From: Aquimarina sp. Aq107
GTDB lineage: Bacteria > Bacteroidota > Bacteroidia > Flavobacteriales > Flavobacteriaceae
Reading direction: 5' to 3'
Assembly: GCF_943733665.1 (NCBI RefSeq)
Contig: NZ_OX030782.1
Span: 1,074,001-1,138,000 of the forward strand
Length of the DNA stretch: 64,000 nucleotides
The stretch's first letter is position 1. Every line of letters starts with the position of its first letter. Positions 6,640-15,654 of the stretch are shown here, piece by piece. A program made the translations under genes and the position numbers. The notes beneath the pieces were generated by a model. It did not search any database. It worked only from the letters and a program-made list of their open reading frames with translations, and was not told the origin of the DNA.

Positions 6640-9189
6640 TTACCAAAAAATCCTAAAACTAATATTAGGAGTAATGCCCAATGCTATAATATCAGAGTTT
6701 ATAAATCGGTTGTCTAAAGAATTAGTTGTTCTAAATTCTCGATTTAGAAGGTTTTCTCTATCATATAGATTTAATACAGAAAGTCCTAATCGATATTTAG
6801 TATTAGGATTAGCACCAATTTTAAAATCATATATTGCAGAAAAATCAAGACGATGGTATATTGGCAAGTTATTTCCATTGATTTCTCCAAAATCCAGTAC
6901 TACTAAGTTTCCATTTTCGTCTACACCATCTACGTTAGTAAACGCTTTACCGGTATGCCATAACCAGCCTAATGAAAATTGAAAGTTATTAATTTTATAA
7001 AAATGAGACCATTTAACAGTATGTTCTATGTTCCAATTACCAGGAAAAGATTGATTGTTATTGATGTTTTCAAATTTGTTTTTAGTGTTAATATATGAAT
7101 AACTTACCCAGGTTTTATAATTGTTAAATCGTTTCTTTAGAAAAAGATCAATTCCATAAACTCTACTTTCACCGGTGTGATAGGTATTATCAATTGGGTT
7201 TATAAATCCTGCGGTTAGCGAAGTAATATCATCTATCTGCTTGTAATAAGTATCTATGTCAAAATACCATTTGTGTTTTTTAAAGCTGCTACCTAAAGTA
7301 AATTGGTAGCTGGTTATTACAGGAAATTGCTCTTTGTTGGATAAGGTCCAAACCTGATTCTCTAGAGATAGATCACTTACCACGGATTCTCTTATTTGGC
7401 TAACAGCTTGACTTCTGTATTCTCCTGTGGCATTAATTTCCCAAGATTTAGAGAGGTTTTTTTGTATAAAGATTCTAGGCTCTATAAATGATTGATTTAA
7501 TTCTGCATAATTATTAAATCTTACCCCCATAGAAAGGTATAAGTTTTTTGGTATTTCATATTTATACTCACCGTATATAGAGTGTGTATTAAGAAGGCGA
7601 TTGTCTTGATCCAGAATCAATTCATATGTTGGTGTTGTTGTAACAAATGCATATTTAATAGTGTTATTAGAGAATTGATACCCGCCTAAAATTGTATGAT
7701 ATTGAGATAGAGAATATTTAACATCAAGAGCAGCTCCTAAGTCTTTGACACTATTCTTCTTACTTTCTGTTTCTATAATGTTTCCAGATTCACCTGTAAT
7801 AAATTGATAATTTAATAGATACCTCGTATAATATCCACTGGTTTTAAGGTTAAAGCCATTATTCGATTGATGTTTCCAGCTAAGGTTATATCCTTCATTC
7901 TCCGTAATTAAATTATCATTAAAAGACATTAGGTCATCACTTCGTTTAAAATCAAGATCATTTTTACTATAAAGTGCATTGGCCTCTATTTTATCAACAT
8001 CAGAAATTTTAGCGATTAAGTTTGCATTATAGTCTTCATAGAAAAAATCATTTTTTGCATCATTAAGTTCAATAGTTTCTGCAATTGTAGTATTCTGAAA
8101 AACTCGATCAGCAAACTGTTTATATGTAAAGGTTTCCAGTATATCAGTGTATGATCTTCTACCAGATATTTGTAATGAAACCTTGTCTTTGATAATTGGA
8201 GTATGAATAACAGCGTCTGCATTAATCATATTAAAACCAGCTCCTCCAGAAAACCGGTCAGCAATTTTATCTTCAGTTTTGATATCGATTATTCCAGAAA
8301 TTCGATCTCCATACTGAGCGCTTACACCACTTTTAGAAAAATCTACTTCTTTTACAACATAAGGGTTAAACGCTGATATCATGCCAAAAAGATGTCCCTG
8401 ATGATATGTTTTAATACCATTCCAGAGCACTAAGTTTTGATTAGGAGCACTACCTCGAACATACAATCCTGATGCTGTTTCGAAGGGACTATTGACACCA
8501 GGAGTTAATTGAATACTTTGCAAAATATCAGGTTCTGTAAGACCAGGAAGTATTTCGATATTTTTTAGATTTATATTAACTATGCGCTTATTTTGAGTGA
8601 TTCCCTTGGTAAGATATTCTTGTATAACAACTTCATCAAGGGTTTCAATAGAATTAATTAAGTATATATTGGCGCATTTGGTATTGGTAAATTCAGATGA
8701 GTTTAAAACTTTTTGTCTAAATCCTGGCGCACTTATTAGGATAGGAGTGTTAAAGGGAACTTCTTGGTTTTCAAAAAAACCTTGATCATTAGTAGTAGTA
8801 TTTGTTCTAGACCCTTTAAAGAATACTCCTATGCTCTCTATAGGTTCATTACTTTCGTTATAAATAAAACCGCAAATTGAAATAGTATCTGTTTTAGAAT
8901 ATTTTCTAATGGTGATGAAATTTTTTCCAGTAATTTCAAATTTTAGTTGTGTTTGTTTTTGTAATAAATCAATTACTTCTTCTAAAGTAGTTTTTACATT
9001 TGTTTGTAGAGAAATTGGTTTATTTATAATCGTAGCATCTATGTAAGAAAATTTGATTTTAAATTGTTTTTCGATAGAAGGAATTATTTGAGATAGCGCT
9101 TCATTTTTGGCACTGATAAGAGTTGTTTCTTCTTGCGAAAAAACAGACATTCCCCAGAAAAGTATGCAAACACATAAAAATCTTGTCAT
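6640..9189 (-). CDS. TonB-dependent receptor with N-terminal signalling (STN) domain
   Basis: Outer-membrane receptor of 849 residues. After a signal peptide (to about residue 18) comes an STN/secretin-like domain at about 20-95 (TTLEEVIDLLQKQTQLKFEI). Next are a carboxypeptidase-regulatory-like domain at about 105-190, a plug at about 195-310 (QSIQLTPGVNSP, GLYVRGSAPNQNLVLWNGI) and a beta-barrel ending in an aromatic residue (FRIFW). STN domains mark receptors that signal to a FecR-type anti-sigma factor, and fecR lies 4 bp upstream on the same strand. It is probably co-transcribed with fecR from the GGGGTAGGGT promoter at 10126-10158. The ligand is unknown; there is no SusD partner and no siderophore gene nearby. 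Confidence 0.92.
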   Translation of the reverse strand: MTRFLCVCILFWGMSVFSQEETTLISAKNEALSQIIPSIEKQFKIKFSYIDATIINKPISLQTNVKTTLEEVIDLLQKQTQLKFEITGKNFITIRKYSKTDTISICGFIYNESNEPIESIGVFFKGSRTNTTTNDQGFFENQEVPFNTPILISAPGFRQKVLNSSEFTNTKCANIYLINSIETLDEVVIQEYLTKGITQNKRIVNINLKNIEILPGLTEPDILQSIQLTPGVNSPFETASGLYVRGSAPNQNLVLWNGIKTYHQGHLFGMISAFNPYVVKEVDFSKSGVSAQYGDRISGIIDIKTEDKIADRFSGGAGFNMINADAVIHTPIIKDKVSLQISGRRSYTDILETFTYKQFADRVFQNTTIAETIELNDAKNDFFYEDYNANLIAKISDVDKIEANALYSKNDLDFKRSDDLMSFNDNLITENEGYNLSWKHQSNNGFNLKTSGYYTRYLLNYQFITGESGNIIETESKKNSVKDLGAALDVKYSLSQYHTILGGYQFSNNTIKYAFVTTTPTYELILDQDNRLLNTHSIYGEYKYEIPKNLYLSMGVRFNNYAELNQSFIEPRIFIQKNLSKSWEINATGEYRSQAVSQIRESVVSDLSLENQVWTLSNKEQFPVITSYQFTLGSSFKKHKWYFDIDTYYKQIDDITSLTAGFINPIDNTYHTGESRVYGIDLFLKKRFNNYKTWVSYSYINTKNKFENINNNQSFPGNWNIEHTVKWSHFYKINNFQFSLGWLWHTGKAFTNVDGVDENGNLVVLDFGEINGNNLPIYHRLDFSAIYDFKIGANPNTKYRLGLSVLNLYDRENLLNREFRTTNSLDNRFINSDIIALGITPNISFRIFW

Positions 9190-9193
9190 TCCC

Positions 9194-10108
9194 TTATTTT
9201 TCTAATACCACTGTTTTTTGGTCTTGCAATAATTTGTATTGTAAACCTAAGGTACTAAAAACTGTTTTAAGAGCAACTTCTATATCGTTATTAGGAAAAG
9301 TTCCCGTATAGATTGTTTTGGTATCAATTCCATTTGTATCAATAGAGATGTTATACTGATCTTCTAATTCTATAAATACATATTTTAAAGGTACACTTTT
9401 AAAAGAACTGGTATTACTAATCCAAGAAGGTTCTAAAGCTTCGAACACCCAATTCTCAGAAGCGATTTTAGAAATTTTTCTATAACCTTTTCCTGCCGTA
9501 AGTATGGTGTTTTCTTTTCCTCGAGTAACATTAACTTTACCTTCATAGCATACTGCTTCGAAATATGAAGGCAGAGATTGTACGTTAAATTCTGTGCCAA
9601 GTACGGTAACATCCCCATTCGTGGTTGTAACCGTAAATTTACTTCCTTTTTTTACTTTAAAATACGCTTCTCCTTCTAAGGATATTACTCTATTGTTTTC
9701 CCAATCATTTTTGTTAAAACTAGCTTCTGATTTTGCATTCAATATCATTTCTGAACCATCTGGTAATGTAACCGCTAATTGTTCTCCATATGAGGTGGTA
9801 AAAGAGTTATTTGATTTAAAAAAGAAAAAACCAAATAGTATAGCAATCGAGGCCGCAACGGCTATAGCTGGCCATAGTTTAATAACAGGTTTCTTATGCT
9901 GATTTAAAGAAGTTTGCTTGTTAGATTTGATATTATTTAATGCAGTATCTACATCATACGGTACTAATTCCAGAGTGTCCGCACCAGCCATAATCTTAGC
10001 GTAATGATTATATTCTGGATGGGATTGGAACTCACGGAGTTCCTCTGGAGAAAGCTCTCCATTAATCCATCTGGATAGGAATATATCATCTTTTTTATCG
10101 TCTAACAT
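9194..10108 (-). CDS. FecR-family anti-sigma factor
   Basis: Single-pass inner-membrane protein of 304 residues. The N-terminal cytosolic part (1-78, SRWINGELSPEE) would bind the sigma factor. One transmembrane helix lies at about 79-97. The periplasmic FecR domain (about 110-205) is followed by a C-terminal DUF4974/STN-like domain (about 235-300) expected to contact the receptor's STN domain. It sits between sigma and receptor in the usual FecI-FecR-FecA order. Its own upstream motif (10126-10158) matches those of the three lipoprotein genes, implying autoregulation by the cognate sigma factor. Confidence 0.93.
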   Translation of the reverse strand: MLDDKKDDIFLSRWINGELSPEELREFQSHPEYNHYAKIMAGADTLELVPYDVDTALNNIKSNKQTSLNQHKKPVIKLWPAIAVAASIAILFGFFFFKSNNSFTTSYGEQLAVTLPDGSEMILNAKSEASFNKNDWENNRVISLEGEAYFKVKKGSKFTVTTTNGDVTVLGTEFNVQSLPSYFEAVCYEGKVNVTRGKENTILTAGKGYRKISKIASENWVFEALEPSWISNTSSFKSVPLKYVFIELEDQYNISIDTNGIDTKTIYTGTFPNNDIEVALKTVFSTLGLQYKLLQDQKTVVLEK

Positions 10109-10125
10109 AACTCTTCTGTATATAA

Positions 10126-10158
10126 TAGAAACGTTTTATTATCTAATAACCCTACCCC
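10126..10158 (-). promoter_or_regulatory. candidate ECF promoter for fecR-TBDR (motif copy 4)
   Basis: On the minus strand GGGGTAGGGT (10158 to 10149), exactly 15 nt, then CGTTTCTA (10133 to 10126), ending 17 nt before the fecR ATG. The same two blocks with the same 15-nt spacing precede the three repeat lipoproteins on the plus strand. Confidence 0.8.
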
Positions 10159-10219
10159 TATATTTATTTTTTTTATTTTCATAATGATCTAATCGTTTAC
10201 AATTAGAAAATAATTACAA

Positions 10220-10741
10220 TTAAATATTTCCAATTTTTTTTCTTAATGTTACCAATGCCTTATGCATTAATTTTTCAATTGCCTTTACCGATACGTTAGA
10301 TAACTCAGCAATTTCTTTATATGTTTTTTTGTCGATTCGACTAAGCAAGAAAACTTCCCGTTGTCTATCCGGTAAATCGGCTATGGCACTTTTTAATTTC
10401 TCCATATATTCTTTTTCAAGCATAACAAATTCTGGAGACTCATTAGTCACATCACTTTTTCTTTGTGTAATATAATTTTGATGTTTAAACTTTACCTGTT
10501 GATGTCTGGCATTACTAATTCCCAAATTAGTAGCGATCGTATAGACATAACTTTTTGCTTTGTCTAAAGAAACCTTTGCACAATTATTCCATAGTTTAAT
10601 AAAAGAATCTTGTACGATATCTTCAGCTTGATCAAGATCTCCAAACTTATAGTATAGATAATTCCTCAAAAGTTTAGCATGACTTTTGAAAAATTCATTA
10701 AAGACTTGCTCGTCACAAGTAGTGTTTTTACTATCAGACAT
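10220..10741 (-). CDS. ECF-type RNA polymerase sigma factor (FecI-like)
   Basis: A 173-residue sigma factor with region 2 (about 15-85, DQAEDIVQDSFIKLWNN) and region 4 (about 115-170, LPDRQREVFLLSRIDKKTYKEIA with a helix-turn-helix), and no region 3, as in ECF sigma factors. It is followed by its FecR and STN-receptor. The 111-bp gap before fecR carries a separate promoter. The sigma gene has a housekeeping promoter at 10762-10788. I infer that it directs transcription of fecR-TBDR and the three adjacent lipoprotein genes through the shared motif. Confidence 0.94.
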   Translation of the reverse strand: MSDSKNTTCDEQVFNEFFKSHAKLLRNYLYYKFGDLDQAEDIVQDSFIKLWNNCAKVSLDKAKSYVYTIATNLGISNARHQQVKFKHQNYITQRKSDVTNESPEFVMLEKEYMEKLKSAIADLPDRQREVFLLSRIDKKTYKEIAELSNVSVKAIEKLMHKALVTLRKKIGNI

Positions 10742-10761
10742 TTGGGGGATTTATTTAGTGC

Positions 10762-10788
10762 CAAAACTAGATTTTTTTCTGATACCAA
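10762..10788 (-). promoter_or_regulatory. housekeeping promoter for the ECF sigma gene
   Basis: On the minus strand TTG (10788 to 10786), 16 bp, then TAGTTTTG (TAnnTTTG, 10769 to 10762). The expected transcript begins about 14 nt before the sigma ATG. The sigma gene itself lacks the GGGTRGGGT motif. Confidence 0.6.
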
Positions 10789-10818
10789 AAAAAATAAATC
10801 ATAAAAAAAATAAAAGCT

Positions 10819-10851
10819 GGGGTGGGGTAGGATGATTGATTAGCGTTTTAC
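10819..10851 (+). promoter_or_regulatory. candidate ECF promoter (motif copy 1)
   Basis: GGGGTGGGGT (10819-10828), 15 nt, CGTTTTAC (10844-10851). It lies 63 nt before the first repeat lipoprotein, back to back with the sigma gene's own promoter. Confidence 0.78.
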
Positions 10852-10914
10852 TAGTGTTATAACACACAAAATATCTCAATTGAGTTTTACTTAATCTTTA
10901 ATTAAAAAATTAAA

Positions 10915-12357
10915 ATGAAAAATCTTAAAATTCTTGGCCTACTTATGTTCGGGCTCATGCTAATATTTACTTCTTGTGAAGAAAATGATGATGGTGATTC
11001 AAGCACCGACTGTCCTGAATTATCTTTTGAAAGAGATGGTGGGAAATTAATTGCAAATTTTGAAGAAATAAACAGTTTAGATGTTTACGAATGGTTTGTA
11101 AACGATGAATTGGTAGAAACTGAAAGCTTAGAAAATCAACGTGATAATATATTAGATATTTCAGAATATAATACTGGAACTTATACTGTTTGTATAAAGG
11201 CAGAGACTCCGGATTGTCCTAATGGTGTAGAATTTTGTAAAGAGATAGTTGTGGGAGAAGACATGGAAGGTTGTCCAGAACTAAAATTCACCAGAGATGG
11301 AGATTATCTATTTGCTGATTTTGAAGGTATCGATACATTAGAGTTTTATGCTTGGCAAGTTACCGGTGAGATACTTGGTAATGAAACCATTATAGAAAAT
11401 GAAGGAACCAATAATCAAGGAGATAATAAATTTTCTCTTGCTAATTTAGAAGAAGGTACATATAGTATTTGTTTAATTTCAGAAAGTCCTACTTGTACTA
11501 GCACAGAATATTGCGAAGAAATAACTATAGATGGTGATGGACAGGATTCTTGCCCAGATCTTTCGGTTAGTTCAGAAGGAGGTATCGTTGTTGCCACTAT
11601 TAGTGGTACTGATGATATCGATTTGTTTAAATGGTATGTAAACAACCAACTTATTGGAGCAGATGAGTTACAAATTCAAGGTGGAATTGTAACATTAGAT
11701 CTTAGTGATTATAACCCAGGTTCTTATGAAGTTTGTGTAAAATTTAGTTCTAACGATTGTTCTCAAGGAATCGAAGCTTGCGTATCTGCCCAGGTAACAG
11801 ATGATAATAATGGTGGTGATGACTGTCCAAATTTATCATTTATTGAAGAGGGAACATTAATGTTTGCTAATTTTTCTGGAATAGACCAATTAGATGTTTA
11901 TGAATGGTTCGTTGATGGTGTATTGGTAGAAACAGAAAATTTACAGAGTCAGGATAGAGATAATAAACTTGATTTATCATCTTATAATCCAGGAACTTAT
12001 ACTGTTTGTGTTAAAGCAGAAACTAACGAATGTCCTAATGGTACAGAATTTTGTAGAGATATAGTAATTCCAGAACCACAGCCAGTAGATTGTTCAGTAT
12101 TTAAATTGGAATATATAGCAACAAATGGTGCTGAATTTGTAAATGCTAATGGAGTTATTCTATTTGGATTAGAAGATAATTCTGTAGTATGGGAAATTGA
12201 TGGAACTCAAATTAACCCTACAACGACAACAGGACATTTTATCATATTAAAAAACCACTTAAGTCAAGCAGGAAAGTATGAGATTTGCTATAAGGCAGAG
12301 TCAACTGAATGTGGAGCGCTACAAGAGTGTATAGAGGTTGATTTTCAAGGATTGTAA
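10915..12357 (+). CDS. surface lipoprotein 1 with five four-Cys repeats
   Basis: A 480-residue lipoprotein. The signal peptide ends at Cys21 (IFTSC) and is followed by an acidic stretch (EENDDGD) of the kind associated with surface export of Bacteroidota lipoproteins. Five repeats of 87-93 residues begin at Cys33, 120, 213, 304 and 393; the fifth is divergent. Each follows CPxLxF - (A)xF - YEWFV(N/D)(G/D) - PGTYxVC - ETPxCPxG - FC. The spacing and the YEW/TYTVC strands suggest an Ig/PKD-like beta-sandwich with two disulfides. I know of no named family, so no function is assigned. It has its own motif promoter and terminator, diverging from the sigma/FecR/TBDR unit. Confidence 0.85.
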   Translation: MKNLKILGLLMFGLMLIFTSCEENDDGDSSTDCPELSFERDGGKLIANFEEINSLDVYEWFVNDELVETESLENQRDNILDISEYNTGTYTVCIKAETPDCPNGVEFCKEIVVGEDMEGCPELKFTRDGDYLFADFEGIDTLEFYAWQVTGEILGNETIIENEGTNNQGDNKFSLANLEEGTYSICLISESPTCTSTEYCEEITIDGDGQDSCPDLSVSSEGGIVVATISGTDDIDLFKWYVNNQLIGADELQIQGGIVTLDLSDYNPGSYEVCVKFSSNDCSQGIEACVSAQVTDDNNGGDDCPNLSFIEEGTLMFANFSGIDQLDVYEWFVDGVLVETENLQSQDRDNKLDLSSYNPGTYTVCVKAETNECPNGTEFCRDIVIPEPQPVDCSVFKLEYIATNGAEFVNANGVILFGLEDNSVVWEIDGTQINPTTTTGHFIILKNHLSQAGKYEICYKAESTECGALQECIEVDFQGL

Positions 12358-12405
12358 TAAGAAGAATAAAGGTTCTTAATAGACTATAGTTCTTAATTTT
12401 AAAGG

Positions 12406-12438
12406 ATGAGGTTGTATATCAATACGACCTCATTTTTT
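12406..12438 (+). terminator. terminator after lipoprotein 1
   Basis: ATGAGGT (12406-12412) pairs with ACCTCAT (12427-12433), extended inside by GTAT/ATAC, and is followed by six T. It separates the first lipoprotein gene from the second. Confidence 0.8.
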
Positions 12439-12474
12439 ATTTTAAAAATGATTTTAACATTTTTTTTGAAGGAA

Positions 12475-12507
12475 GGGGTAGGGTATTCTTTTTTAGCTGC
12501 GTTTCAT
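12475..12507 (+). promoter_or_regulatory. candidate ECF promoter (motif copy 2)
   Basis: GGGGTAGGGT (12475-12484), 15 nt, CGTTTCAT (12500-12507), 65 nt before the second repeat lipoprotein. Confidence 0.8.
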
Positions 12508-12572
12508 AATTGTAGGGCTGATAAAAAAGGCTTTAAACAATTAATTATTGACAACCCCTAAAAATTATAACG

Positions 12573-14006
12573 ATGAAAAAACTTAGTATTTGGTATGTAA
12601 TGATTTTTGCATTACTGTTAGGAATTATTTCTTGTGAAGAAATTGAAGAATTAGAAAATTGCCCAGATGTAACTATTAACGTAGATAATGTTTCTGGAAG
12701 TGCAGTGTATCGATTCGCTGCTCAATTTGATGGTATCGAAGATGTAAGACTTACCTGGTCTATTGATAGTGAAGAAATAGATACTGGTAACTTAAGTGAT
12801 ATAGCAAATCAGATTTTTGAATATCAGTTTGAAGAAGGAACATATACTGTTTGTGTAAAAGTAGCAAGCGATACTTGTCCTATAGAAGTGTGTAAAGAAA
12901 TTGAAGTAGATGTTGATGAAACTGATCCTTGTCCAGATTTGTTTTTTGAAGCAAGACAATATGAAAGACCAAATAAGTATAAGTTTATTGCAGATTTCCC
13001 AGGAATTGAAGATGTTCGTTATGAGTGGTTTATTAATGGAGAAGTGGTAGATAGCGATAATCAGAATGATAACAACTATTTATTTTGGGAATTTAATGAG
13101 CCTGGTAGTTATGAAGTATGTATTAAAACAGAAACTCCAGATTGTCCTAACGGTACTTCTTATTGCAAGACTATCGAAATAGAAGAGACAGACATAGATG
13201 AAGAATGTCCTGAGTTATTTTTTATTGCAGAACAAGATGGAGATAATCCAGCATATTATTTTCAGGTAGAGTTTGAAGGAGCTGATCAAGTAGAATGGTT
13301 AGGATGGTATATTGATGGAGAGTTTGTAGAAGATTCAAATAGTGGTGATAACAATAGATTTTATTATCAATTTGCTCCAGGAAGATATGAAGTATGTTTA
13401 AAAACAGAAACTCCAGAATGTCCAGAAGGAACTTCTTATTGCAAAATTATTGAAATTGAAGGTGATGTCAGTGTTTGTCCAGAATTATTCTTTGAGGCAG
13501 AACAAGATGGAGATAATCCAGCGTATTACTTTTACCCAAACGCTTTTGATGGTATCGATGATGTAACACTAGAATGGTCTGTCAATGGAGATTATGTAGG
13601 AACAAGTTCTGGTCATGACGATCCTTTTTATTATCAATTTGGGACAGGTAGTTTTGAGGTGTGTCTTTCTGTAGAAACTCCAGAATGTCCAGAAGGAGTA
13701 ACATTTTGTAAAGTAATTGAAATCGAAGGATCCGAAAATGATTGTCCTGATTTATTTTTTACCATTGAACAAGAAGGAAATACTCCAGGATATAATTTTT
13801 GGGCAGAATTCGAAGGAATGAGCAATGTTAGCTACGAATGGTTGATCAATGGTGATGTCGTAGATACCGAAACAATGAACAGTAATGATAGAGATAATTA
13901 TTTATACTATCAATTTGGAACGGGAACATATGAGATCTGTATTATAACAGAAACACCGGATTGTCCAAATGGTGTAACATTTTGTAAAACATTAGTCATA
14001 GAATAG
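12573..14006 (+). CDS. surface lipoprotein 2 with five four-Cys repeats
   Basis: A 477-residue lipoprotein: signal peptide to Cys21 (LLGIISC), an acidic EEIEELEN tail, then five repeats starting at Cys30, 120, 212, 302 and 391. The repeats are the most regular of the three paralogues (CPELFFEAEQDGDNPAYYF, YYQFGTG(S/T)(F/Y)E(V/I)C, TPECPEG, FCK). The chain ends right after the last FCKTLVIE strand, so there is no C-terminal T9SS sorting domain. Anchoring is by lipid. The length of the repeat array could act as a stalk. It has its own copy of the ECF motif upstream. The function is unknown. Confidence 0.85.
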   Translation: MKKLSIWYVMIFALLLGIISCEEIEELENCPDVTINVDNVSGSAVYRFAAQFDGIEDVRLTWSIDSEEIDTGNLSDIANQIFEYQFEEGTYTVCVKVASDTCPIEVCKEIEVDVDETDPCPDLFFEARQYERPNKYKFIADFPGIEDVRYEWFINGEVVDSDNQNDNNYLFWEFNEPGSYEVCIKTETPDCPNGTSYCKTIEIEETDIDEECPELFFIAEQDGDNPAYYFQVEFEGADQVEWLGWYIDGEFVEDSNSGDNNRFYYQFAPGRYEVCLKTETPECPEGTSYCKIIEIEGDVSVCPELFFEAEQDGDNPAYYFYPNAFDGIDDVTLEWSVNGDYVGTSSGHDDPFYYQFGTGSFEVCLSVETPECPEGVTFCKVIEIEGSENDCPDLFFTIEQEGNTPGYNFWAEFEGMSNVSYEWLINGDVVDTETMNSNDRDNYLYYQFGTGTYEICIITETPDCPNGVTFCKTLVIE

Positions 14007-14038
14007 TACAGTTAGTTAGGTTAGATTAATTAGGTTGA

Positions 14039-14074
14039 TTCCCTGGAAGCATTGTCATTCTTTCAGGGAATTTT
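14039..14074 (+). terminator. probable terminator after lipoprotein 2
   Basis: TTCCCTGGAA (14039-14048) and TTCAGGGAA (14062-14070) form an imperfect stem with one bulge, followed by TTTTG. It is weaker than the other terminators here. Confidence 0.55.
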
Positions 14075-14137
14075 GTTTATACGCATAAGATATGTTAGAT
14101 TGTAACCTAAAATAAAACGAATAATTTATTTTAATTA

Positions 14138-14170
14138 AGGGTAGGGTAGACTGATTTTCAGACGTTTTAC
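14138..14170 (+). promoter_or_regulatory. candidate ECF promoter (motif copy 3)
   Basis: AGGGTAGGGT (14138-14147), 15 nt, CGTTTTAC (14163-14170). It ends only 8 nt before the first possible ATG of the third lipoprotein, so the message would be leaderless or start at a later codon. Confidence 0.8.
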
Positions 14171-14178
14171 TTATATAA

Positions 14179-15654
14179 ATGCAAATTATTTTGAAGAATT
14201 TCAATACTTATATACGATTATATACATTACTAATACTGATTTCATTCTTTAGTAGTTGTGTAAGTGATGATTCGTTTTTTCCAGAAGAAAACACAGGTAA
14301 TGTAGTATCAAGTGCCGCTTTGGTGACGGTTCTTAATAATTTTGATGGTGCTGCTAATTTCCCTGCAGAAAATGAACAGTGCTTTAGGTTTGTATATCCT
14401 ATTACGCTTGGTTATAATACAGATTCTACTATTAGAGTAGAGAGTTATGATGGGTTGGTAGATGTAATTTCCAGTCAAGGTACTAATTTTAATGTTACAG
14501 GATTAGAATTTCCGGTTAATATTATTTTTAAGAATACGGATATCACCATACCTATTATTAATGAAATAGCTTTATTAAATGTTTTAAGTGAATGTGAGTT
14601 CGACACAATCAGAGATGATTTTGATCAGTTTTTTGATGGATGCTTTACGTTTGATTTTCCAGTCACTCTGTTTAATATAACTGGAGAGGAAATTGAGATT
14701 ACAACGGATGATGCGTTTCAGACTTTTTATCAAGAACAAGGAATAGCTTATCAGCCTAATTTTAAATTTCCATTAAATGTATTAGTGTCACCAAATTTTG
14801 AAAGTACTGAAATAGAGACGTATTTTGGGTTTTATAGACTAATAGAATCTTGTGTGAGTAGATGTCCAAGCCTTAGTTTTACTTCGGAATCAATGGGCCA
14901 ATTTAATTTTGGGTATCAATTTACTGCTGATTTCCCTGATATAGATGTAATAGGAACTTATGATTGGTTTGTAGATGGTCAATTTATTGAGAGTGATGGT
15001 CCAAATAATCAAGGAGATAATTTATTGGTACGTAATTTTGGATCACCAGGGATATATGAAGTTTGTATTAAAGCAGAAACACCTAACTGCCCAGAAGGGA
15101 TAGAATTTTGTAAGCAGATCGAAGTTGTTGAATTTTGTCCAGAACTGTTTTTTGATTTTGAACAAGAACAAGGAACGTTAACGTATATTTTTACCTCTAG
15201 TTTTTCTGGCATAGAAGAGTTGGATTATCAATGGTACATAGATAATGAACTCATAGAAGAAGATGGAGGTGCTAATGGGGATAATATATTATCATCTAAT
15301 TTATCACCTGGAGTGCACGAGGTATGTATAAGTACAGAAACCCCTTCTTGTCCTAATGGAGCAGAGTTTTGTAAGGAAATAACGGTAGAACCAATTTGTC
15401 CTAATTTGTTTTTTAATTTTGAACAAGAAGGAAATACAACAAGTTATAATTTTACTGCAGATTTCGAAAATATTGAAGTAATAGCGTATCAATGGGAAAT
15501 AGATGGAGAGGTTATAGAGCAGGATGGTGGACAAGGTGGCGATAATGTATTCTTTTTTCAATTTGATCCTGGTTCATATGAAATTTGCATTAGAGCAATA
15601 ACAGATACTTGTCCGGATGGAACAGAGTTCTGCGAGCAACTAGTTATTGAGTAA
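14179..15654 (+). CDS. surface lipoprotein 3: duplicated N-terminal domain plus three four-Cys repeats
   Basis: A 491-residue lipoprotein. The signal peptide ends in FFSSC (Cys27) followed by VSDDSF, which resembles the acidic surface-export tail of Flavobacterium lipoproteins. Residues about 55-225 hold two copies of a ~90-residue domain (CFRFVYPITL at 68, CFTFDFPVTL at 155, each with a later FPxNxxx strand and a closing EC/SC). Three repeats like those of the two upstream genes follow at Cys229, 320 and 407. The start is uncertain: ATG 14179 lies at or next to the predicted transcription start, and a TTG at 14191 would give MKNFNTYIRLY, a more usual signal peptide. Of the three paralogues it is the only one with an extra head domain, so it may be the tip or ligand-binding member. 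Confidence 0.83.
   Translation: MQIILKNFNTYIRLYTLLILISFFSSCVSDDSFFPEENTGNVVSSAALVTVLNNFDGAANFPAENEQCFRFVYPITLGYNTDSTIRVESYDGLVDVISSQGTNFNVTGLEFPVNIIFKNTDITIPIINEIALLNVLSECEFDTIRDDFDQFFDGCFTFDFPVTLFNITGEEIEITTDDAFQTFYQEQGIAYQPNFKFPLNVLVSPNFESTEIETYFGFYRLIESCVSRCPSLSFTSESMGQFNFGYQFTADFPDIDVIGTYDWFVDGQFIESDGPNNQGDNLLVRNFGSPGIYEVCIKAETPNCPEGIEFCKQIEVVEFCPELFFDFEQEQGTLTYIFTSSFSGIEELDYQWYIDNELIEEDGGANGDNILSSNLSPGVHEVCISTETPSCPNGAEFCKEITVEPICPNLFFNFEQEGNTTSYNFTADFENIEVIAYQWEIDGEVIEQDGGQGGDNVFFFQFDPGSYEICIRAITDTCPDGTEFCEQLVIE

Follow-up and report, generated by a model that had tools for sequence, protein, structure and literature searches.

A predicted GTAGGGT-N15-[C/T]GTT promoter of FecI-like sigma factors, with a candidate small-RNA arm in Aquimarina

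How far might the control exerted by a FecI-like extracytoplasmic function (ECF) sigma factor reach beyond its own receptor? The question is raised by a 64,000-nucleotide (nt) stretch of Aquimarina sp. Aq107 (contig NZ_OX030782.1, positions 1,074,001 to 1,138,000; henceforth the window), in which the genes for such a sigma factor, a FecR-type anti-sigma factor and a TonB-dependent receptor (TBDR) stand next to three lipoprotein genes, LP1 to LP3. We propose, with a probability of roughly 0.6, that this FecI-type sigma controls a non-coding arm of two conserved small RNAs together with surface lipoproteins, secreted proteins and a small protein, and that GTAGGGT-N15-[C/T]GTT is a promoter code extending well beyond the genus. 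In this code the first base of the -10 box would be set by sigma residue 79, and the regulons of the many FecI-like sigmas of Bacteroidota could be predicted from it. This proposal rests on sequence comparison. The narrower claim within it, that four sites in the window are promoters of this one sigma and drive fecR-TBDR and LP1-LP3, is very probably correct. The features concerned are as follows.

6640 to 9189, minus strand: TBDR gene (Pfam); FecR_C-like N-terminal domain at residues 28-92
9194 to 10108, minus strand: gene for a FecR-type anti-sigma factor with one hydrophobic stretch (Pfam FecR PF04773 and FecR_C)
10127 to 10158, minus strand: predicted ECF promoter of fecR-TBDR, between sigma and fecR (strict match 10157-10129; 28.3 bits)
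10220 to 10741, minus strand: gene for the FecI-like ECF sigma factor, 173 aa (Pfam Sigma70_r2, Sigma70_r4_2)
10762 to 10769, minus strand: TAGTTTTG, putative -7 box of housekeeping type for the sigma gene, as read from the sequence of a single genome
10819 to 10850, plus strand: predicted ECF promoter of LP1 (strict match 10820-10848; 32.9 bits)
10915 to 12357, plus strand: LP1, lipoprotein of about 90-aa four-cysteine repeats (translation; weak immunoglobulin (Ig)/PKD-like Pfam matches)
12475 to 12506, plus strand: predicted ECF promoter of LP2 (strict match 12476-12504; 34.3 bits, the top match of the window)
12573 to 14006, plus strand: LP2, lipoprotein with five all-beta beads (translation; AlphaFold2)
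14138 to 14169, plus strand: predicted ECF promoter of LP3 (strict match 14139-14167; 30.8 bits)
14179 to 15654, plus strand: LP3, lipoprotein with three repeats and a differing N-terminal part (translation)

The original prediction was that four copies of GGGTRGGGT-N15-CGTTT define a private regulon of this sigma. All four are present in the window, the gap from GGGT to CGTTT being exactly 15 nt in each, and 100 shuffles yielded no match; the annotation (Pfam, translations) agrees that the genes behind them are fecR-TBDR and the three repeat lipoproteins. Weight-matrix scores are 28-34 bits at these sites and at most 10.3 in the rest of the window. The frequency of the motif had been named as a check, and it proved low, with 5 strict matches in the 5,500,051-base genome as against none for the reversed-pattern control, while the relaxed GTRGGGT-N15-CGTT gives 6 matches as against 1. 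These six sites stand before fecR, LP1, LP2, LP3, a gene for a protein secreted by the type IX secretion system (T9SS) and a gene for a 56-aa protein. Both "private" and "four copies" were too narrow: a strict site at genome position 213947 and a relaxed one at 2291625 lie outside the window, the site is also carried by the T9SS gene and the conserved 56-aa gene here and by small RNAs in sister species, and the -35 half is common to sister FecI-like sigmas.

Conservation was examined in 66 Aquimarina genomes, from which 60 locus stretches were fetched. Relatives of the sigma (E<=1e-20, paralogs included) are found in 63 of the 66 genomes and the strict motif in 52; summed per genome, there are 117 matches as against 10 of the reversed control. 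When spacers of 14-16 nt are allowed, 113 of the 117 matches have 15 and four have 16, with none at 14, and in the 60 stretches CGTT lies exactly 15 nt past GGGTRGGGT in 93/97 instances. The 60 gene maps reveal that the order NDK, TBDR, fecR, sigma, lipoproteins, thioesterase, recF is kept across much of the genus, with the motif sitting before the lipoproteins and fecR. In loci whose sigma is this one or a relative at least 58% identical to it, an upstream site scoring at least 10 bits is found for fecR in 52/55, LP1 in 18/18, LP2 in 41/43 and LP3 in 35/55, and for sigma in 0/53, TBDR 0/54, NDK 0/41, PhoD 0/31, thioesterase 0/29 and recF 0/30 (the last four, the flanking genes, pooling to 0/131). 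As the matrix was trained on the strict sites of these same stretches, the strict ones are bound to receive high scores; the majority of fecR sites are non-strict and stood outside the training. This scoring was run with L148, L149 and L152-L154 set aside and on upstream stretches of at least 200 nt. Thus, in the orthologous loci, the other check named beforehand, the motif is not lost before fecR, LP1 or LP2.

The two-block consensus itself needed trimming: its spacing and its CGTT hold, but its first GGGT varies. In place of the full -35 block, GAGGTAGGGTA or AAGGTAGGGTA is found at many of the orthologous fecR promoters, the first GG often being GA or AA and GTAGGGT usually being followed by A. 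Given this variability of the first GGGT, we take the core to be GTAGGGT, 15 nt and CGTT; the -35 core is often extended to GGGGTAGGGTA. In most loci the fecR site ends 18-20 nt before the ATG. Two conserved boxes at a fixed spacing, distinct from the housekeeping promoter, point to an ECF-type promoter. As originally described, the sigma gene lacks the motif, its upstream scores all being below 7 bits in 53 loci, and the TAnnTTTG box proposed for it is present as TAGTTTTG at 10769-10762 on the minus strand. A passage of PMC9723704 gives TAnnTTTG as the sigma-A box in Flavobacterium psychrophilum.

We also searched the gap between sigma and fecR for RGGGT followed, after 11-19 nt, by CGTT, TGTT or variants in 107 different pairs. 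The spacer is 15 in 85 of the 90 gaps with a match (16 in 3, 11 in 1 and 12 in 1). If only the last 110 nt of the gap are considered, 87/107 match on the given strand, as against 1 for the reverse complement and 0 for the reversed sequence. Outside Aquimarina, 25/27 pairs (from 28 named loci) match, 23 of them with spacer 15; the matching loci include those of Kordia, Cyclobacteriaceae, Dokdonia, Flagellimonas and Ancylomarina. These loci were chosen by likeness to the window sigma, and hence the phylum is unevenly sampled. Sister sigma loci have GTAGGGT at -35 as well. The gaps with CGTT belong to sigmas at least 55% identical to the window sigma (plus one at 49%), and those with TGTT to sigmas that are 45-59% identical.

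Region 2.3-2.4 of ECF sigmas reads the -10 box. Among the 85 sigmas with a spacer of 15 in their gap (49 of which were used for a tree), most of the positions that best separate the CGTT and TGTT groups fall at 74-82, which by position is region 2.3-2.4. All 57 CGTT-type sigmas that could be scored have Arg at residue 79 (2 are gapped; one CGTC and one CGTA are included), and the 23 TGTT-type sigmas (two TGTC included) all have Ala, Lys or Glu there, never Arg. The CGTT-type sigma of locus L228, with Arg, groups with two TGTC/Lys sigmas (support 100/95) on a long branch and, judging from this tree, is a second, separate switch of residue and -10 box. Residue 158 was set aside as a -10 determinant because the L228 sigma keeps Arg there despite its CGTT. 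Conservation, fixed spacing, linkage and the residue/-10 correlation, all of them drawn from sequence, lend strong support to the claim that the neighbouring sigma reads the two boxes.

Alternatively, several FecI-like sigmas might read the sites, the neighbouring one not being the chief reader. This is unlikely, although it is the alternative that survives best: GTAGGGT at -35 is shared with the sister loci, and GTRGGGT-N15-TGTT has 15 genome matches as against 6 of the control. However, the sister -10 is TGTT, with residue 79 changing along with it, and 4 of the 6 relaxed CGTT-type genome sites are at the locus of the window sigma, which argues for the latter as the principal reader. Separately, we observed that the TGTT-type sites at genome positions 624461 and 625242 flank a sister sigma gene at 624.5 kb, one on each side.

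What else, then, lies behind the CGTT-type site? The fifth strict genome site, at 213947, is 29 nt before the gene for a 429-aa protein with a T9SS sorting domain, and look-alikes of this gene with the motif are found in three more genomes (L347, L353, L354). In four genomes, at L241 (about 9984), L242 (about 5202), L350 (about 4008) and L356 (about 4297, reverse), a T9SS-type site is kept with no gene behind it; on visual inspection, what follows is no more than a remnant of the C-terminal sorting region. The sixth genome site, at 2291625, is about 240 nt before the 56-aa protein gene. This gene is found in 50/66 genomes, and of the 30 loci returned 26 have a site scoring at least 7.5 at 215-244 nt upstream (one of them TGTT) and 4 are without; the 7.5 cut-off was chosen post hoc with the scores already seen, and control genes reach 6.7. 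Between site and gene lies a putative housekeeping-type promoter, TTTGTACATTTG. Right behind TTTGTACATTTG, most 56-aa loci (L360 at about 3800; its orthologs within L367-L396) carry CCTACCCC, which reads GGGGTAGG on the opposite strand; these upstream regions were displayed for 25/30 loci, with L381, L385, L386, L392 and L395 left out. A TGTT-type site at 2290911 stands about 100 nt before the gene located upstream of the 56-aa gene. Elsewhere in the genus, trans sites precede T9SS sorting-domain proteins (two such matches being slightly below the Pfam cut-off), M57-type metalloprotease lipoproteins and other lipoproteins. The genus sites opened for this survey are those other than the spacer-16 strict sites G399:C5, G406:C9 and G437:C4.

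Several trans sites are followed by no open reading frame; what follows is about 60-110 nt (once more) and then an intrinsic terminator. We built two RNA models with the motif left out, using 5 sequences for family A and 4 for family B. Family A gives 28 hits at E<=0.01 in 26/66 genomes. The 19 with E<=9.3e-5, of which 14 were not used for training, are each preceded by a site at a distance of 2-6 nt; before the 9 weaker ones a site is always missing. Among the latter is the sole family A hit in the window genome (3179704, E 0.002), in which neither an A nor a B RNA was found. Family B gives 35 hits at E<=0.01 in 32/66 genomes, of which 30 were examined: 27 are clear RNAs, and the other 3 are different terminators without a site. 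A site scoring at least 20 precedes 26/27 clear family B RNAs and 22/23 non-training ones, the latter count including L322, whose site is separated from the RNA core by an insertion of about 80 nt. Of the non-training members, nine (2 A, 7 B) had previously been found as strict motif hits. In the one remaining clear family B RNA (G444), a spacer-16 site lies farther upstream, past an inserted stretch. Taken over the two genomes of L322 and L338, the insertion between site and family B core measures about 80-100 nt.

The neighbour genes are common to up to 17/19 (A) and 23/25 (B) loci, as compared with L318 and L329 set aside. RNA alignments show conserved cores, and the family B terminator stem displays compensatory changes; members from close species are near copies (25 family B sequences, 21 different), and L322 and L338 (insertions) and L341, L344 and L346 (no family B RNA) were kept out of the family B alignment. 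An Rfam scan of 24 loci (18 with an A or B RNA) returned 8 weak matches, none overlapping an A/B RNA. A shallow search for family B in 249 family genomes, limited to 12 scored candidates in each, gave 3 weak hits outside the genus. The clade of the window genome has no good A/B hit at the search depth used and carries LP1-LP3 instead. With their own promoter site, a terminator, conservation and no shared frame, families A and B look like trans-encoded small-RNA genes. The strict site at L351 (about 3918; G432) has a terminator about 100 nt behind it; neither RNA model detected this stretch, which is perhaps a third small RNA.

That these terminator-ended transcripts encode tiny proteins rather than RNAs is improbable, slightly more so than reading by several sigmas. 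An ATGG is indeed at a conserved place in 17/19 family A members, but it is absent from the other 2, the frames stop at varying points inside or beyond the terminator, and no reading frame is common to family B, which favours RNA products for both families.

The structure of the -35 block bears on a further alternative, namely that the GGGTAGGGTA direct repeat is the operator of an activator or repressor and that the CGTTT box is that of any ECF sigma. The block is 10-11 bp long with an inner period of 5 bp, and an 11-bp block exceeds the ordinary length of an ECF -35. Nevertheless, such an operator would not readily explain why the distance from block to CGTT is fixed (93/97), why the block shrinks to GTAGGGT in many fecR promoters, or why it tracks the sigma-fecR gap in 25/27 pairs outside the genus; moreover, of the nine locus proteins scanned with Pfam, the sigma alone matches a DNA-binding family. 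We therefore regard this as quite improbable. That the sites are chance occurrences or a copied cassette without function is scarcely credible, for although the paralogous LP1-LP3 could have duplicated along with their upstream DNA, the spacer sequences diverge freely while the blocks are kept, and the same site precedes unrelated genes and RNAs.

Certain observations weigh against our proposal that one sigma reads these sites and that the code extends beyond the genus. The strict motif had to be rejected as a family-wide marker, as it is at chance level outside Aquimarina: 397 family genomes hold 31 strict matches, 25 of them outside the genus, as against about 38 reversed-control matches, and the spacers of those 25 are about equally 14, 15 and 16 (9/7/9). 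The sigma-fecR gap lacks the pattern in 17/107 pairs, including both Marinifilum gaps. The fecR gap of the nearest paralog sigma (genome position 190923; 57%) has some other sequence in place of GTAGGGT. Within the genus, 20/55 LP3 upstream regions score below 10, some owing to starts placed inside the gene, and five trans sites (L074, L248, L348, L349, L355) are followed by no clear gene or RNA. The residue/-10 link consists of two independent switches only, one of them on a long branch. Finally, the long 11-bp -35 block could be shared by an extra regulator, and several FecI-like sigmas per genome leave room for cross-recognition. As a side observation on the paralog, its fecR gap (L235 6863-6921, genome 190.9 kb) contains TTGGAAAG...TTTCCTGTTA, perhaps another promoter class.

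If the proposal holds, the sigma gene would be run from a housekeeping-type promoter, whereas the sigma's own type of promoter (-35 GTAGGGT, 15-nt spacing, -10 CGTT) between sigma and fecR would drive the genes for anti-sigma factor and TBDR; the surface lipoproteins would be driven by three more. By the FecA-FecR-FecI paradigm, a ligand at the TBDR would signal through FecR to free the sigma, which would then raise receptor and anti-sigma together, along with LP1-LP3, the T9SS-secreted protein and the conserved 56-aa protein. As anti-sigma and receptor would be under the sigma and the sigma gene outside its control, a sensitive, self-limiting loop is predicted. In sister species the same sigma would drive the two small RNAs, a non-coding arm as in enteric sigma-E. 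The latter, also an ECF sigma, responds to envelope signals and has MicA/RybB as its small RNAs; it answers misfolded outer-membrane proteins, not a TBDR ligand. The likeness lies in an ECF sigma with small RNAs, those of Aquimarina being without an overlapping Rfam match in the loci scanned.

Among known systems, E. coli FecI-FecR-FecA likewise has an ECF sigma, a FecR membrane anti-sigma and a TBDR in adjacency; its receptor gene is under the sigma, as is predicted for Aquimarina (parts of PMC9249621). In Aquimarina, however, fecR too is predicted to be under the sigma, from a promoter between sigma and fecR, and the set, whose -35/-10 is a different one, includes surface lipoproteins and a secreted protein, to which sister species add small RNAs; the terms "sRNA" and "small RNA" are absent from the main text of PMC9249621. 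The ECF sigma/anti-sigma/SusC sets of Bacteroides polysaccharide utilization loci (PULs) have the TBDR-coupled sigma release that is predicted for Aquimarina (passages of PMC11501099 and PMC12596196), and in B. thetaiotaomicron a TGTT box lies near the -10 of two SigW-1 promoters, the authors' own motif being non-significant (PMC12596196, in part). Unlike PULs, the Aquimarina locus has a SusD-like lipoprotein or glycan enzyme in 0/9 scanned proteins, and the passages describe no GTAGGGT -35, with no word in PMC12596196 starting with "tagggt". The SM6 promoters of F. psychrophilum, also of Flavobacteriaceae, have a CGT box at -10 (PMC9723704, compared by text); one of them precedes a putative regulatory RNA, Rfp11, and hence the link from ECF sigma to small RNA has a predicted precedent. 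In contrast to the Aquimarina set, SM6 is tied to the T9SS machinery and a sigma/anti-sigma pair, and "FecR" does not occur in the main text of PMC9723704.

In the parts of the literature consulted we found no description of the GTAGGGT promoter or the A/B RNAs; the motif of the group may be in the ECF classification (gkaa1229). Hence, FecI/FecR/TBDR signalling is known, while the small RNAs under it and the promoter code look new. A passage of PMC12596196 reports 50 ECF sigmas in B. thetaiotaomicron, with most of their networks largely unknown. A promoter readable from the sigma-fecR gap, together with a residue that tracks the first -10 base, would make Bacteroidota ECF regulons predictable and testable, and conserved small RNAs under a TBDR-coupled sigma would, if true, extend a sigma-E-type non-coding arm to cell-surface signalling.

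Turning to the individual proteins, the window sigma has regions 2 and 4 only, its top sequence relative in the PDB is SigW, an ECF sigma, and it scores 125.5 bits against TIGR02985 Sig70_bacteroi1, slightly below the cut-off of 126.4; the closest species is A. latercula, with a sigma identity of 98%. The FecR hydrophobic stretch, read by eye from the translation, is at about residues 78-97. The N-terminal domain of the TBDR sits where a signalling domain is usual, its match being to FecR_C and not to the STN model; the TBDR has no PDB sequence relative at E<=0.001. LP2, like LP1, is built of about 90-aa four-cysteine repeats. Its AlphaFold2 model has a pLDDT of 73 and a pTM of 0.39, and the Foldseek matches listed are mostly strings of Ig/fibronectin type III (FnIII) beads with TM-scores of about 0.2, which restricts us to suggesting, from this model, a bead-on-string Ig-like fold. 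At LP3 the CGTTT of the putative promoter ends 11 nt before the annotated ATG (14139-14179), so that either the mRNA leader is very short (nearly leaderless) or the start is misplaced.

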